Below are positions 56,068 through 60,339 of a stretch of DNA of 64,000 nt, one piece after another; positions within the stretch are counted from its first letter, which is position 1; each line of letters opens with the position of its first letter. The notes beneath the pieces were generated by a model that did not search any database, was not told where the DNA came from, and saw nothing but the letters and a program-made list of their open reading frames with translations. The stretch is from Thioalkalivibrio sp. XN8. GTDB taxonomy: Bacteria > Pseudomonadota > Gammaproteobacteria > Steroidobacterales > XN24. The stretch covers positions 1 to 64,000 of the forward strand of contig NZ_JAALFH010000066.1 in the NCBI RefSeq assembly GCF_011058255.1, in the 5' to 3' direction. The position numbers and the translations under genes are program-made.

Positions 56068-56709
56068 TCAGCGCACCAGCCCGGCGCGCCGCAACCGCTT
56101 TTCGATCGCCCGGGCAGCCTCGTCCATGATTTCGTAGCGCGTCTCGCGCGGCGGGATGACGACGTCGATGGTGTAGAGGAGGCGGGCGTCTGCGACGCCG
56201 TAAACGTCCGCGGCCAGCGCCACCGAGGCCTCGGTCGATACGTAGCTCGATCCCTCCAGCACCTTGTAGTCGTAGCGGAAGAAATCGAGCGGCGTGTCCC
56301 GGCGGCGCTCGACCTTGATGCTGTCCCGGCCGACGGCCTCGGTGAGTTCGATCTGCTGGTGCTCGAGGCGGGCCACCACGACCAGCTGGGCCCCGGTTGC
56401 CGTGACGGCGGCGGCTACGGATTCACGGTCCAGTGGCACGGCGTTGTCGGTGTGGCGGCTGCTGGCCCAGGCCTCGTTGCCGGCCTCGCGCAGCCGCCCG
56501 GCGAGCAGGTCCTCGAAGGTGCGACGGTTGGTCAGGTCGCGGCCGACGCCGACGACCAGGATGCCGGCGGGCGGCTCGGCCGGGGCGGTCGCATGCCAGG
56601 TCGAGCCGACGCGCGTCGGCGCGGCGCAGGCGGCGAGCATGGCCAGGGCCGACAGGCCGAGAAGAAAGCGGGCGATGAACTTGGCTGGCACGGTCGACTC
56701 CGATGGCAT
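56068..56709 (-). CDS. Lipoprotein of unknown function downstream of sbtB-like gene
   Basis: A 213-residue protein with a lipoprotein signal (LALAAC, C28). After a proline-rich linker (APAEPPAGI) a Rossmann-like or TolB-N-like region follows (GILVVGVG, NRRTFEDLLAGRLREAGNEAW, AQLVVVARLEH). I do not recognise a specific family. The ATG at 56709 is 8 bases after the PII-like gene ends, so the two are co-transcribed. Confidence 0.75.
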   Translation of the reverse strand: MPSESTVPAKFIARFLLGLSALAMLAACAAPTRVGSTWHATAPAEPPAGILVVGVGRDLTNRRTFEDLLAGRLREAGNEAWASSRHTDNAVPLDRESVAAAVTATGAQLVVVARLEHQQIELTEAVGRDSIKVERRRDTPLDFFRYDYKVLEGSSYVSTEASVALAADVYGVADARLLYTIDVVIPPRETRYEIMDEAARAIEKRLRRAGLVR

Positions 56710-56717
56710 GGCGGGGC

Positions 56718-57020
56718 TCAGAACTTCTCCGGGCGCAATACGCCGACGTCGGTGAAGAACAGGATCATGGCGTAGTGGTCGTAATAATGCTGGCGCAGGT
56801 GCGCGCTGATCTTGGCGGCGATCGCCGCATCGCAAACGACCTCCACGCGGATATTGCTGCTGGCGTCCCAGCCGGCGCTGCGAACGCCCCGGCTGCCCTC
56901 GCCGCGGGCGTCGCTGATGGTGTAGCCATGCGCGCCGAGGCGCTTGAGGTCTTCGGCCAGGCGCCGCTCGAGTGCTGCCTCGGTGATGATGGTGACCAGC
57001 TTGCGATCGTCGGCCTGCAT
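56718..57020 (-). CDS. PII-like signalling protein (SbtB-type)
   Basis: A 100-residue ferredoxin-like protein. KLVTIITEAALERRLAEDLKRLGAHGYTISDARGEG is the PII/SbtB N-terminal half, with NIRVEVVCDA and YYDHYAMILFFTDVGVLRPEKF in the second. The C-terminus is short and lacks the extra cysteine (R-loop) motif of some cyanobacterial SbtB. SbtB binds AMP/cAMP and gates SbtA; here it should gate the transporter next door. Start ATG at 57020, 4 bases after sbtA. Confidence 0.88.
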   Translation of the reverse strand: MQADDRKLVTIITEAALERRLAEDLKRLGAHGYTISDARGEGSRGVRSAGWDASSNIRVEVVCDAAIAAKISAHLRQHYYDHYAMILFFTDVGVLRPEKF

Positions 57021-57024
57021 ACGC

Positions 57025-57972
57025 TCATCCTCCCAGCTGACGCAGCTGCTCGGCAAGCCCGTAGTAAAGCGGGATGCCGACCAGGATGTTGAACGGGAAG
57101 GTCACCCCGAGCGACGCCGTCAGCGACAGCGTCGGGTTGGCTTCGGGCAGGGCGAGCCGCATGGCGGCCGGGACAGCGATGTAGGAGGCGCTGGCCGCCA
57201 GCACGGCGAGCAGCATCATGCCGCCGGTGGAGAAGCCCAGGAGCAGGCCGAGACCGCCGCCGACCAGGGCGCCGAAGAGCGGGAACAGAATGCCGAAGGC
57301 GACCAGGAACAGGCCGTGGCGGCGCAGGCTGCCGACCTGGCCTGCGGCGACCAGGCCCATTTCCAGCAGGAACAGGGCGAGCACGCCATGGAACAGCCCG
57401 AAGAACAGGCCCCCCACGGGTTCCAGCGCCTCGGGTCCCGCGACCCAGCCGATCAGCAGCCCGCCGACCAGCAGCACGATGCTCTTGCCGAGAAAGACCT
57501 CGTGCCCCAGCTCCTTCCACTTGGTGTCGGCGGACACGCCGCGCGCCAGCAGGATGCCGACCACGATGGCGGGCATTTCCAGCAGCACCAGCATCAGCGG
57601 CATGTATTCCTCGTAGGGGATCTCGCGCGCCACCAGCCAGGCGACCGCCACGGCGTAGGTGCCGACGCTCACCGAGCCGTAATGCGCGGCAATGGAGGCC
57701 GCGTCGGCGCGGCGCAGGCGACCGAGGCGGCGCAGCAGCGGATAGGCCACCAGCGGCAGCAACAGGCCCATCAGGATGACGGCGAGCATCTGCGGCAACA
57801 GGTCGCCGAGCGACTGCTTCGCCAGCTCGGCGCCGCCCTTCAGCCCGATCGCCAGCAGCAGGATGACGCTGAGGAACTCGTAGATCGAGCCGGGGAGGCG
57901 CAGGTCGGAGCGGCCCAGGCCCGCCACCAGGCCCAGCAGGAAGAACAGCACGATGGGGTCGATTCCGCTCAC
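57025..57972 (-). CDS. sbtA: Sodium-dependent bicarbonate transporter (SbtA family)
   Basis: A 315-residue membrane protein with about ten helices in two inverted halves (DUF897/SbtA). Conserved parts include LSVILLLAIGLKGGAEL (about 34-50), AAHYGSVSVGTYAVA (about 94-108), MPAIVVGILLARGVS and ASASYIAVPAAMRLALPEANP in the second half. SbtA is best known for carbon-concentrating in cyanobacteria but is widespread in proteobacteria. The GTG at 57972 was used; a TTG three codons earlier is possible and neither has a strong ribosome-binding site. The barrel gene ends 53 bases upstream. Confidence 0.9.
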   Translation of the reverse strand: MSGIDPIVLFFLLGLVAGLGRSDLRLPGSIYEFLSVILLLAIGLKGGAELAKQSLGDLLPQMLAVILMGLLLPLVAYPLLRRLGRLRRADAASIAAHYGSVSVGTYAVAVAWLVAREIPYEEYMPLMLVLLEMPAIVVGILLARGVSADTKWKELGHEVFLGKSIVLLVGGLLIGWVAGPEALEPVGGLFFGLFHGVLALFLLEMGLVAAGQVGSLRRHGLFLVAFGILFPLFGALVGGGLGLLLGFSTGGMMLLAVLAASASYIAVPAAMRLALPEANPTLSLTASLGVTFPFNILVGIPLYYGLAEQLRQLGG

Positions 57973-58025: not shown

Positions 58026-59165
58026 CTAGAAGCGCGTGGTGAACCGGATGTAGAAGTCGTCCACCACGCCGACCTGTTCGGCGTCTGCGGGTACCTTGAT
58101 CTCCTGGCGCTGGCGCAAGGCGGCTTCCATGGTCCACTTGCTCGAGACGCGCCACTGGTAGCGGATCTCGTACAGTTTCTCGCCGTTGCCGAAGTCCGGC
58201 GACAGCAGCCAGCCGGCGTCGACCCGGCCGTGCACGTAGCCGATGGCATGGCCCGGGATGAAGTCCCACAGGCTCAGCGTCGCCTGCCAGGCCTCGCCGT
58301 TGGCGTCGCCGGTCGCCGCCGGGTTGAACAGGGAACCCGCCGGGGTTGTCGGCGCATAGCCGTACTCGATGCCTACCCCGCCGCGCATTCCGGCAATCGG
58401 CCATTCGGCGAAGAGTTTCGCCGTCAGGGCCAGGTAATCGTCGCGCGCCGGCGCCGCCAGCCCGTCCGCGGCAAGGGTCGAGGGCATCCAGGTCACGGCG
58501 AACACCCGCTGGGTCAGCGGTCCCAGCGGCTCGGCGGCCTCCAGTGCCGCGAACATCGTCACTTGGCTGGCGTCGTCGTCGAAGGCGAGCGGCGGCCGGG
58601 CGGCCTGGCCGGAACCGCTGCTGGCATTCGACTGCAGGACCAGGTGGCTGCGCCAGGCCGAGTCCAGGCCGTAGGTCAGATGCAGCCCGTCGGTCCAGCT
58701 GATCTCGGTCTCCGGGCTGTTGTAGCGATCGAGGCTCTTGGCCGCGACGCCGTCGAGCACGAACTCGCCCTGGAAGCGCCCGGCGCGGAGCGACCAGCTG
58801 CTGCCCGGCCGGTGGTAGTGGAGGTACAGCTCGTCGATGGTCGTGTCCCCCAGCTCCAGGCCGGTCGGGGTCGGCGCCCAGGCCTTGAGCCAGAAACGGG
58901 AGCGGTCCTGCTCGGTGCCGTAGCGGCCCGCCAGCCGGATCCGGCCGAGCCACTCCTCGGCGAGCTGGCTTTCCAGGCCGAGCCGCAGCCGCGCGCGCAA
59001 TTCTTCCTCCCGGGGCAGGCTCTCCCCCTCCCGCGTGTCCTGCTCGCTGGCCGCCAGCTCGAGCCGCACGTCGCCGACGAAGCGGGTGTCTGCCGCGGCA
59101 GCCGCAGCGGGCAGCAGCGCGCCGGTCGCGCAGAGCAGCAGGGTGGTGAGGCGGGAACAGCTCAT
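58026..59165 (-). CDS. Outer-membrane beta-barrel protein (porin/alginate-export-like)
   Basis: A 379-residue exported protein with a signal peptide to about residue 25 (AAAAD). The rest is a long series of amphipathic strands ending in aromatic FTTRF, typical of a 16- to 18-strand barrel. Blocks such as FRGRFQGEF-like (LRAGRFQGEFVLDG, about 115-128) and NSPETEISWTDGLHLTYG recall the alginate export/porin group. Its substrate is unknown. The ATG overlaps the PhzF stop (ATGA). Confidence 0.82.
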   Translation of the reverse strand: MSCSRLTTLLLCATGALLPAAAAAADTRFVGDVRLELAASEQDTREGESLPREEELRARLRLGLESQLAEEWLGRIRLAGRYGTEQDRSRFWLKAWAPTPTGLELGDTTIDELYLHYHRPGSSWSLRAGRFQGEFVLDGVAAKSLDRYNSPETEISWTDGLHLTYGLDSAWRSHLVLQSNASSGSGQAARPPLAFDDDASQVTMFAALEAAEPLGPLTQRVFAVTWMPSTLAADGLAAPARDDYLALTAKLFAEWPIAGMRGGVGIEYGYAPTTPAGSLFNPAATGDANGEAWQATLSLWDFIPGHAIGYVHGRVDAGWLLSPDFGNGEKLYEIRYQWRVSSKWTMEAALRQRQEIKVPADAEQVGVVDDFYIRFTTRF

Positions 59166-60088
59166 CCCGATGTCTCCGAGTTCGAGTCTGGAATCCGCAG
59201 CGTGCCCTCGGCGATGGCGACCGCCGTGCCGCCCACCCGCACTGCCGTGAGCGCGCCGCCGGCAAGCTCGGCTTCGATCATCAGCGTGCTGGGCCGGCCG
59301 AGCCCGGCGCCTTGCTCGATGGTGATGGTCAGGATGCCGTCGGTGGTACCGAGCCGCGGCGCCAGCCAGCCGGGGAAGGCAGTGGCGGCCGAGCCGGTGG
59401 CGGGATCCTCCGGGATGCCGATGGCGGGACCGAACATGCGGGCCCGGTAGCGGGTGCCGCCGGGACCGTCCAGGGGAGCGACCAGGTAGACCTGGTTCGC
59501 CCACCAGTTCTTCAGGATTTCCTTCCAGCGCTGCAGGTCCAGTTCCGCGCGCGCCAGGGCCTCGGTGTCGCGGACGGGAACGACCAGGTAGGGAATGCCC
59601 GCCGAGACCGCCGCCGGTCCCCATTGCCCCGCGAGGATGTCGGTCGGCCGGAGGCCGAGCAGCGCCGCCAGGGCAGCGCTCGGCGGCGCCGGCGGGCCCA
59701 CCTCGGGCAGCATGGCGGCCCAGAGCCAGGCGCTGCGATGCTGTTTCTGCTGGCGCAGGCTGACGCGGACGGGCCCGATCGCCTGGCCGAAGACCAGCTC
59801 CGCCTGGTCCCAGCCCTCGTCGGCCAGGGCCAGCGCCGCGCCGATGGTGGGATGGCCGGCGAAGGGCAGCTCCTGGGTCGGGGTGAAAATGCGCAGGCGG
59901 TGGGTCTCGCCGCGGTGGCGCGGCGGCCGGATGAAAGCGGTTTCCGACAGGTTGAACTCGCGCGCGATCTGCTGCATCTGGGTCGCAGACAGGCCCTCTG
60001 CCTCCGGCAGCAGCGCCAGCGGATTCCCGCCGTAGGGCCGGTCCGTGAACACGTCCAGGACGAGATAGCGGCGGCGGTTGCGGCTCAT
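59162..60088 (-). CDS. PhzF family isomerase/epimerase
   Basis: A 308-residue two-domain PhzF-fold protein. DVFTDRPYGGNPLALLP and the catalytic region REFNLSETAFI (glutamate about 47-50) are in the first half, with RIFTPTQELPFAGHPTIG after. EDPATGSAA (about 250-258) closes the second half. PhzF enzymes isomerise trans-2,3-dihydro-3-hydroxyanthranilate or carry out related 1,5-proton shifts, but most members have no known substrate. There are no other phenazine genes. Coupled to its neighbours by ATGA overlaps on both sides. Confidence 0.92.
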   Translation of the reverse strand: MSRNRRRYLVLDVFTDRPYGGNPLALLPEAEGLSATQMQQIAREFNLSETAFIRPPRHRGETHRLRIFTPTQELPFAGHPTIGAALALADEGWDQAELVFGQAIGPVRVSLRQQKQHRSAWLWAAMLPEVGPPAPPSAALAALLGLRPTDILAGQWGPAAVSAGIPYLVVPVRDTEALARAELDLQRWKEILKNWWANQVYLVAPLDGPGGTRYRARMFGPAIGIPEDPATGSAATAFPGWLAPRLGTTDGILTITIEQGAGLGRPSTLMIEAELAGGALTAVRVGGTAVAIAEGTLRIPDSNSETSG

Positions 60089-60339
60089 GCGCCCGGCCTG
60101 TGTCGCGGCGGCTGCCGGCGGTGGCGCAGCAACCATACCGGCACTGCAGCCATCATCACGCAGCCGATTACCAGCAGGCTCACGGCCGCCAGCGGCTGCG
60201 GCCAGGCGGCAGGCAGCAGCTCCGGGCCGGTCTCCAGCAGGTCGAGAATGCCCACGGCCGCCAGCACCGCGCCCGCCGCGTCGACGAGCACCAGGCGCAG
60301 CGGGAGGCGCCGGCGATGCAGGTCGGCGCCGGGTCTCAA
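60085..60339 (-). CDS. Small two-helix membrane protein between GMC and PhzF genes
   Basis: An 84-residue protein. Two hydrophobic segments (about 14-36 and 54-76) flank a short acidic stretch (LETGPELLPA). The N-terminus and C-terminus are basic (HRRRLPLRL and RHRRQPPRHR). I do not recognise a family. The TTG at 60339 overlaps the GMC stop (TTGA) and has GGAGC about seven bases ahead, so I prefer it to an ATG far inside the GMC gene. Its stop overlaps the PhzF start. Confidence 0.65.
   Translation of the reverse strand: MRPGADLHRRRLPLRLVLVDAAGAVLAAVGILDLLETGPELLPAAWPQPLAAVSLLVIGCVMMAAVPVWLLRHRRQPPRHRPGA

Follow-up and report, generated by a model that had tools for sequence, protein, structure and literature searches.

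Organisation of the locus and its conservation in the genus

Within the window (i.e. a 64,000-nucleotide stretch of DNA from Thioalkalivibrio sp. XN8), three consecutive genes on the minus strand encode a transporter, a PII-like protein and a lipoprotein. The transporter gene (57025–57972, minus strand; GTG start at 57972, 315 aa) specifies an SbtA-like member of the Sbt_1 family, of an altered-site, SO_3758-like type. It is followed by the gene for a PII-like partner of 100 aa with a short T-loop and no cysteine R-loop (56718–57020, minus strand; PF00543) and by that for a lipoprotein with a predicted PelC-like fold (56068–56709, minus strand; ATG at 56709, 213 aa precursor), for which an in-frame GTG at 56691 provides an alternative start. 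The positions of the three genes and the 8-nt gap between the PII-like and lipoprotein genes, as given in the initial annotation, were confirmed from the sequence; the gap between sbtA and the PII-like gene is 4 nt. Located 53 nt 5' of sbtA is a putative outer-membrane barrel gene (58026–59165, minus strand; Porin_5 E 0.0056, below cut-off), which overlaps by 4 nt the gene for a PhzF-family isomerase (59162–60136, minus strand; PF02567, E 9.3e-65), and a dehydrogenase gene begins 50 nt downstream of the lipoprotein gene. Pfam matches and ORF positions bear out the earlier description of a minus-strand run that also takes in the GMC and PhzF genes. No minus-strand promoter-like or terminator-like site was detected between 54900 and 60400 using a simple consensus scan, and hence a single transcript spanning the three genes is plausible.

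The sbtA-PII-lipoprotein group was present in all three examined species of the genus (i.e. G000, the window genome, G001 and G002). G000 and G002 share an order of GMC, PhzF and barrel-like genes, then sbtA-PII-lipoprotein, then a zinc-type dehydrogenase gene, with extra ORFs in G002 between the barrel gene and sbtA and also between the lipoprotein and dehydrogenase genes. The order in G001 is GMC-PhzF-PhoX-lipoprotein-sbtA-PII, with the lipoprotein in first position in the group rather than last as in G000 and G002. The linkage of sbtA and lipoprotein in the genus therefore persists through a change of gene order. The other two sbtA-linked lipoproteins of the genus exhibited 72% and 53% identity to that of the window, and gaps between the lipoprotein gene and its neighbour were ~8–16 nt across the genus. 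A homologue of the barrel-like gene was located ~1 kb from sbtA in G002 and none was found in the G001 region, indicating that this gene is not a constant neighbour of sbtA in the genus. Retention in 3/3 examined species shows that the three-gene grouping exceeds chance, and the group is real, operon-like and made of known kinds of gene. In the taxonomic family, Sbt_1 was detected in five of seven genomes; a single-sequence search found the lipoprotein in three of the seven, all of this genus, to which the lipoprotein profile added one weaker match (G006, E 1.9e-10). A contig scan with one octapeptide pattern produced five loci, a low yield that says little.

The transporter and its PII-like partner

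The pairing of SbtA and PII proposed in the initial annotation was upheld by a Pfam match of the transporter to Sbt_1 (PF05982; E 2e-117, 392.3 bits against a cut-off of 27, positions 1–307 of 308) next to a match of the adjacent protein to PF00543 (E 1.3e-23, 83.7 bits against a cut-off of 25), which places the latter in the PII superfamily. The transporter also matched the solved SbtA of Synechocystis (7cye; E 2.4e-31). In that protein, the Na+ ligands are main-chain oxygens of F110, G111, A112, A320 and S322, and bicarbonate, in a site that is a docking model, contacts S114, Y140, S324 and S327; alanine at any of these four residues leaves ~10–40% of HCO3- transport (PMC8352866). In Synechocystis numbering, the window transporter exhibits F110Y, Y140L, D325Y and S327A and keeps S114, S322 and S324. 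Two of the four putative bicarbonate residues are hence replaced (Y140L and S327A), and, on the basis of these residues, the protein is not a canonical SbtA (SbtA1) but belongs to an altered-site subfamily for which bicarbonate is a putative substrate.

Sbt_1 matches in the order fall at 56 places; four short fragments were dropped, and site residues were read in the remaining 52 proteins, all of them full or long. Both Y140 and S327 were replaced in 49 of these, with residue 327 being mostly Ala and either Val or Asp in four. The three proteins that were canonical at all read positions are a second copy in the window genome (contig C33), one in G104 and one in G120. Sbt_1 is annotated as a sodium-dependent bicarbonate transporter, yet the putative substrate site is consistently altered in this order, which makes an annotation based on the cyanobacterial member directly testable. 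The TM9 motif of the window transporter, AASASYIAV, contains the S-A-S-Y-I-A signature of SO_3758-type proteins (S268 A269 S270 Y271 I272 A273 as reported in PMC12093963).

The second sbtA of the window genome (L002:1450–2457, i.e. ~282.2–283.2 kb of C33) retains all four residues of the canonical bicarbonate site and is followed by a PII gene with a long T-loop, forming a canonical sbtA-sbtB pair. An ORF at L002:794–1447 ends 2 bases before this sbtA and, from a reading of its sequence, looks like an outer-membrane barrel. The RuBisCO large chain was absent from the window genome (0/1), so that bicarbonate, if taken up, would feed carboxylations of other kinds. A tandem pair of altered-site Sbt_1 genes was observed elsewhere (L181:3–2265, G284:C151).

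The PII-like protein terminates in VGVLRPEKF, without a tail and without the CGPxGC R-loop, in agreement with the earlier remark that it ends (VLRPEKF) without a cysteine tail. The further suggestion, that the missing tail points to a different ligand response, is a weak hint, as roughly half of 460 SbtBs from cyanobacteria are reported to lack it as well (PMC10991534). The T-loop lacks the SbtB insertion, and its base (GEGSRGVRS) aligns with GEGSRNVRS of SbtB7001. SbtB is known both to insert its T-loop into the transporter and to sense adenylates (PMC8352866). The nearest solved structure was TTHA0516 of Thermus thermophilus (2cz4; E 8.2e-27), followed by SbtB (1.8e-12); a literature search under the locus name TTHA0516 found nothing. 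With the window's PII as query, a PII-like gene was found adjoining sbtA in 12 of 17 sbtA regions outside the genus.

Transporters of the window type, where examined, come with a short-T-loop PII partner. Among five plasmid-borne pairs, an altered-site transporter was accompanied by a short T-loop in three (two Arthrobacter, one Pseudomonas) and a canonical transporter by a long T-loop in the others (Pseudanabaena and Acaryochloris), with Y140 and S327 both being replaced in the Arthrobacter and Pseudomonas copies. The Arthrobacter pairs (L161 and L163) are carried on conjugative plasmids, with a DUF6671 gene adjoining in both. Arthrobacter, being Gram-positive, has no outer membrane; the pair therefore needs no outer-membrane lipoprotein.

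The lipoprotein: predicted structure, distribution and gene context

The lipoprotein combines a signal peptide with an LAAC lipobox whose predicted lipidation residue, Cys28, is invariant in the 35 aligned homologues (35/35 rows of alignment A2), the hallmarks of a bacterial lipoprotein. Pfam LPAM_1 fell short of its cut-off (14.8 bits against 20), and no curated family in Pfam or NCBIfam exceeded its cut-off. In the Lol rule of E. coli, a residue other than Asp at +2 predicts the outer membrane; as Asp follows the Cys in 0/35 homologues, the lipoprotein is predicted to be sorted to this membrane.

An AlphaFold2 monomer generated with the 35-row A2 alignment was confident (pLDDT 92.9, pTM 0.79). 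For this structure prediction, which the initial annotation had advocated, the best 19 Foldseek matches in the PDB were all chains of PelC or PelBC structures (lowest E 1.4e-6, with probability 1.00), and a second aligner (VIA) also placed PelC first (Z 14.5, rmsd 3.1, 142 residues), followed by TraT, FlgT, CsgG, LptE, TolB and DUF4136. Unrelated proteins in the VIA ranking (polymerase gamma and tRNA synthetases) reached Z 8–9.4, a level that PelC exceeds and that CsgG, LptE, TolB and DUF4136 do not clearly exceed. A search of PDB sequences with the lipoprotein profile returned one match, at E 0.37. PF11997, which we take to be the PelF domain, was not detected in the window genome (0/1), and by this domain alone no Pel gene set was recognised. 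As the fold is alike and the PelF-type marker is absent, the model points to a shared PelC fold and does not thereby establish the protein as PelC. No literature was found on PelC together with TolB and a dodecamer. Assignment to DUF4136 was considered and rejected, PF13590 being below cut-off with a weak match in 2/35 members (best E 0.087). A profile-profile comparison with DUF4136 gave 64.7% over 42 columns, and the A2 profile matched two DUF4136-type ORFs (2e-5 and 2e-4); a distant relationship between the two families is possible on these sequence matches.

A profile built from only the three lipoproteins of the genus served to chart the family across the order, in a sample of 296 genomes taken from a larger set; owing to draft assemblies, this three-sequence profile and a limit on the number of candidates scored in each genome, the lipoprotein counts are lower bounds. 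Homologues were detected in at least 94/296 genomes and Sbt_1 in 46/296 (45 above cut-off), with both families in at least 15. The lipoprotein thus occurred in 15/45 genomes with Sbt_1 and 79/251 others, so the co-occurrence that the initial annotation had proposed to examine is at chance level (odds ratio 1.09, Fisher P 0.86). Adjacency was observed in only three genomes of the sample, all of the window's genus. Of the remaining 12 genomes carrying both families, G098 has the two genes 39 kb apart and all others have them on separate contigs, although adjacency is not strictly excluded by such draft assemblies. Linkage was consequently lacking in 91 of the 94 homologue-bearing genomes, 79 of which have no Sbt_1 over cut-off, and in 42 Sbt_1 genomes besides the genus. 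No family member was found in 36 sbtA regions outside the genus (17 + 19, ~5–15 kb each). In the class sample, the family was present in at least 21/274 genomes including the window's own (20/273 others), and sbtA was found in 0/20 of the class-level lipoprotein regions (3.7–15 kb each). A plasmid tblastn matched the lipoprotein to no record, and no sbtA-lipoprotein bicarbonate operon was found among the literature matches listed, judging by titles and the beginnings of abstracts. Homologues therefore lie mostly away from sbtA, the outcome named in advance as telling against a shared function, and a role as dedicated sbtA partner was rejected on the strength of the distribution across order and class.

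Outside the genus, 20 order-level homologue regions were inspected, these being mostly the best-scoring among 91 genomes rather than a random draw. In 12/20 (L075–L078, L080–L083, L085, L087, L090 and L093) the lipoprotein gene either adjoined dnaX-ybaB-recR-rsgA or was no more than 2.6 kb from dnaX, the identity of DnaX being confirmed by Pfam at one such locus. dnaX was near the homologue in 0/20 class-level regions, indicating that this unexplained linkage is a feature of the order. The dnaX loci of G000 and G001 lack the lipoprotein, and the G002 contig begins inside the locus. Across 30 scattered homologue regions, no neighbour was common to more than a few, except the lipoprotein family itself. 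In another family of the order, a homologue was found among DUF3313 and DUF4136 lipoproteins; DUF3313-like, DUF4136-like (not in L082) and NMT1-like genes surround family members in L079, L082, L083, L089 and L090.

All three species also carry a more distant lipoprotein paralogue elsewhere in the genome. In a 35-row tree, the three sbtA-linked lipoproteins joined firmly (support 100/99), apart from these paralogues. The tree does not securely unite them with any dnaX-linked clade (support 68/77), and not all dnaX-linked rows are labelled as such in it, since dnaX is also near three rows from another family. A tandem arrangement of two family members was observed in G020 (L088:7477–8982), one of which groups with the paralogues of G000, G001 and G002.

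Interpretation and comparison with known systems

The locus is best explained, with a probability of about 0.6, as a known transporter/regulator pair joined by a lipoprotein with a separate job, i.e. a passenger recruited in one genus. The lipoprotein is probably a travelling companion and not part of bicarbonate uptake. This reading is favoured by the chance-level co-occurrence in the order, by the lack of linkage outside the genus (seen in the 12 further genomes that carry both families and in the 36 sbtA regions), by the 0/20 class-level regions with sbtA, and by the occurrence of homologues near dnaX-ybaB-recR in 12/20 regions while the G000 and G001 dnaX loci are without it. The pair on Arthrobacter plasmids, set against a lipoprotein that matched no plasmid record, argues in the same direction. 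By transfer from SbtA and SbtA-SbtB, the transporter would be a trimeric, elevator-type, Na+-coupled importer whose cargo is bicarbonate or a closely similar small anion, and the PII-like trimer would sense adenylate state and plug the transporter from the cytosol via its T-loop. The lipoprotein would be co-produced, exported, lipidated at Cys28 and sorted to the outer membrane, where it would probably assemble into a ring or dock on the periplasmic side, in the manner of PelC/CsgG/TraT, and serve a general envelope function. In this one genus its gene would have been brought to the transporter/PII pair, possibly out of a position resembling the dnaX-ybaB-recR locus; such an origin is tentative, as the genus clade is not securely placed with any dnaX-linked clade. 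The passenger reading is weakened by retention of the lipoprotein within the group in all three species, in two gene orders (n=3), as functional coupling would give the same pattern.

Such coupling could take the form of a lineage-specific accessory, with an outer-membrane ring or dock aiding anion entry into the periplasm or reporting envelope state. The G001 order swap argues against mere inertia, the gaps of ~8–16 nt are short, and the sbtA-linked clade is distinct from the paralogue that each species carries elsewhere. Small anions, however, normally pass through porins, Gram-positives carry the transporter/PII pair, and neither co-occurrence nor linkage was seen in the order, including the 42 other Sbt_1 genomes. 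We regard an accessory role as rather unlikely. Third proteins of sbtAB loci do exist, and for this reason coupling in the window's genus keeps some weight: SbtC, a small protein whose gene lies upstream of the Synechocystis sbtAB genes, is reported to reduce uptake and to restrict leakage (PMC13360264).

The nature of the substrate is a separate matter, and a transporter that carries a different small anion, be it formate or a short carboxylate, or that works as an exporter, is compatible with the passenger reading. Replacement of Y140 and S327 in 49/52 proteins of the order and in the Arthrobacter and Pseudomonas plasmid copies favours this, as does the sensitivity of HCO3- transport to alanine at each corresponding residue in Synechocystis (PMC8352866). 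An A269T change in SO_3758 confers formate tolerance on Shewanella oneidensis, with the authors' modelling favouring efflux (PMC12093963), and the window genome has a canonical pair besides and lacks RuBisCO. Conversely, the Na+ ligands are main-chain oxygens, both Ser114 and Ser324 are retained, the bicarbonate site is itself a docking model, and the divergent SbtA2 family is reported to carry bicarbonate nonetheless (PMC13249358). A different anion or direction is thus a tentative but serious candidate. The initial annotation had instead proposed that all three genes, with the lipoprotein in the periplasm or outer membrane, serve bicarbonate handling. The Pfam name and gene adjacency speak for such bicarbonate uptake by a heterotroph; the lipoprotein distribution, the altered site and the canonical second pair speak against it, and we consider it improbable. 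The outer-membrane part of that proposal agrees with the predicted sorting, while the bicarbonate role of the lipoprotein is unsupported. It is equally a long shot that a PelC-like outer-membrane ring was recruited in the genus to create a PII-gated, three-part importer of a non-bicarbonate anion.

The main interest of the locus lies in the altered substrate site of the transporter family and in the lipoprotein, which adds an uncurated family of predicted PelC fold (at least 94/296 genomes of the order and at least 20/273 other genomes of the class). Like the cyanobacterial SbtA-SbtB pair Slr1512-Slr1513, the window pair consists of an Sbt_1 protein with a PII-like gene adjacent downstream, and differs in the replacement of two of four putative bicarbonate residues, in a shorter T-loop and in the absence of an R-loop; identity of the transporter to three canonical copies (two cyanobacterial and one from its own genome) is 30–36%. 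SO_3758 of Shewanella oneidensis shares the S-A-S-Y-I-A motif, a likeness drawn from the published motif (PMC12093963) that leaves the substrate putative for both proteins. SbtA2 of cyanobacteria, a divergent second bicarbonate family with its own partner SbtB2 according to a review (PMC13249358), resembles the window pair, by description only, as an SbtA subfamily with a dedicated PII-like protein. TTHA0516 (2cz4), the structure of a hypothetical protein, is without the SbtB T-loop insertion, as is the window PII. The predicted lipoprotein model has the alpha/beta fold of PelC, with only 6–18% identity across the four PelC entries in the VIA comparison, and a more distant likeness, in the same alpha/beta fold, to TraT, FlgT, CsgG, the TolB N-domain and DUF4136. 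PelC forms a twelve-lipoprotein ring at the outer membrane (PMC12141448); PelC, TraT and CsgG are lipoproteins like that of the window, for which, the model being of a monomer, a ring is a putative state.
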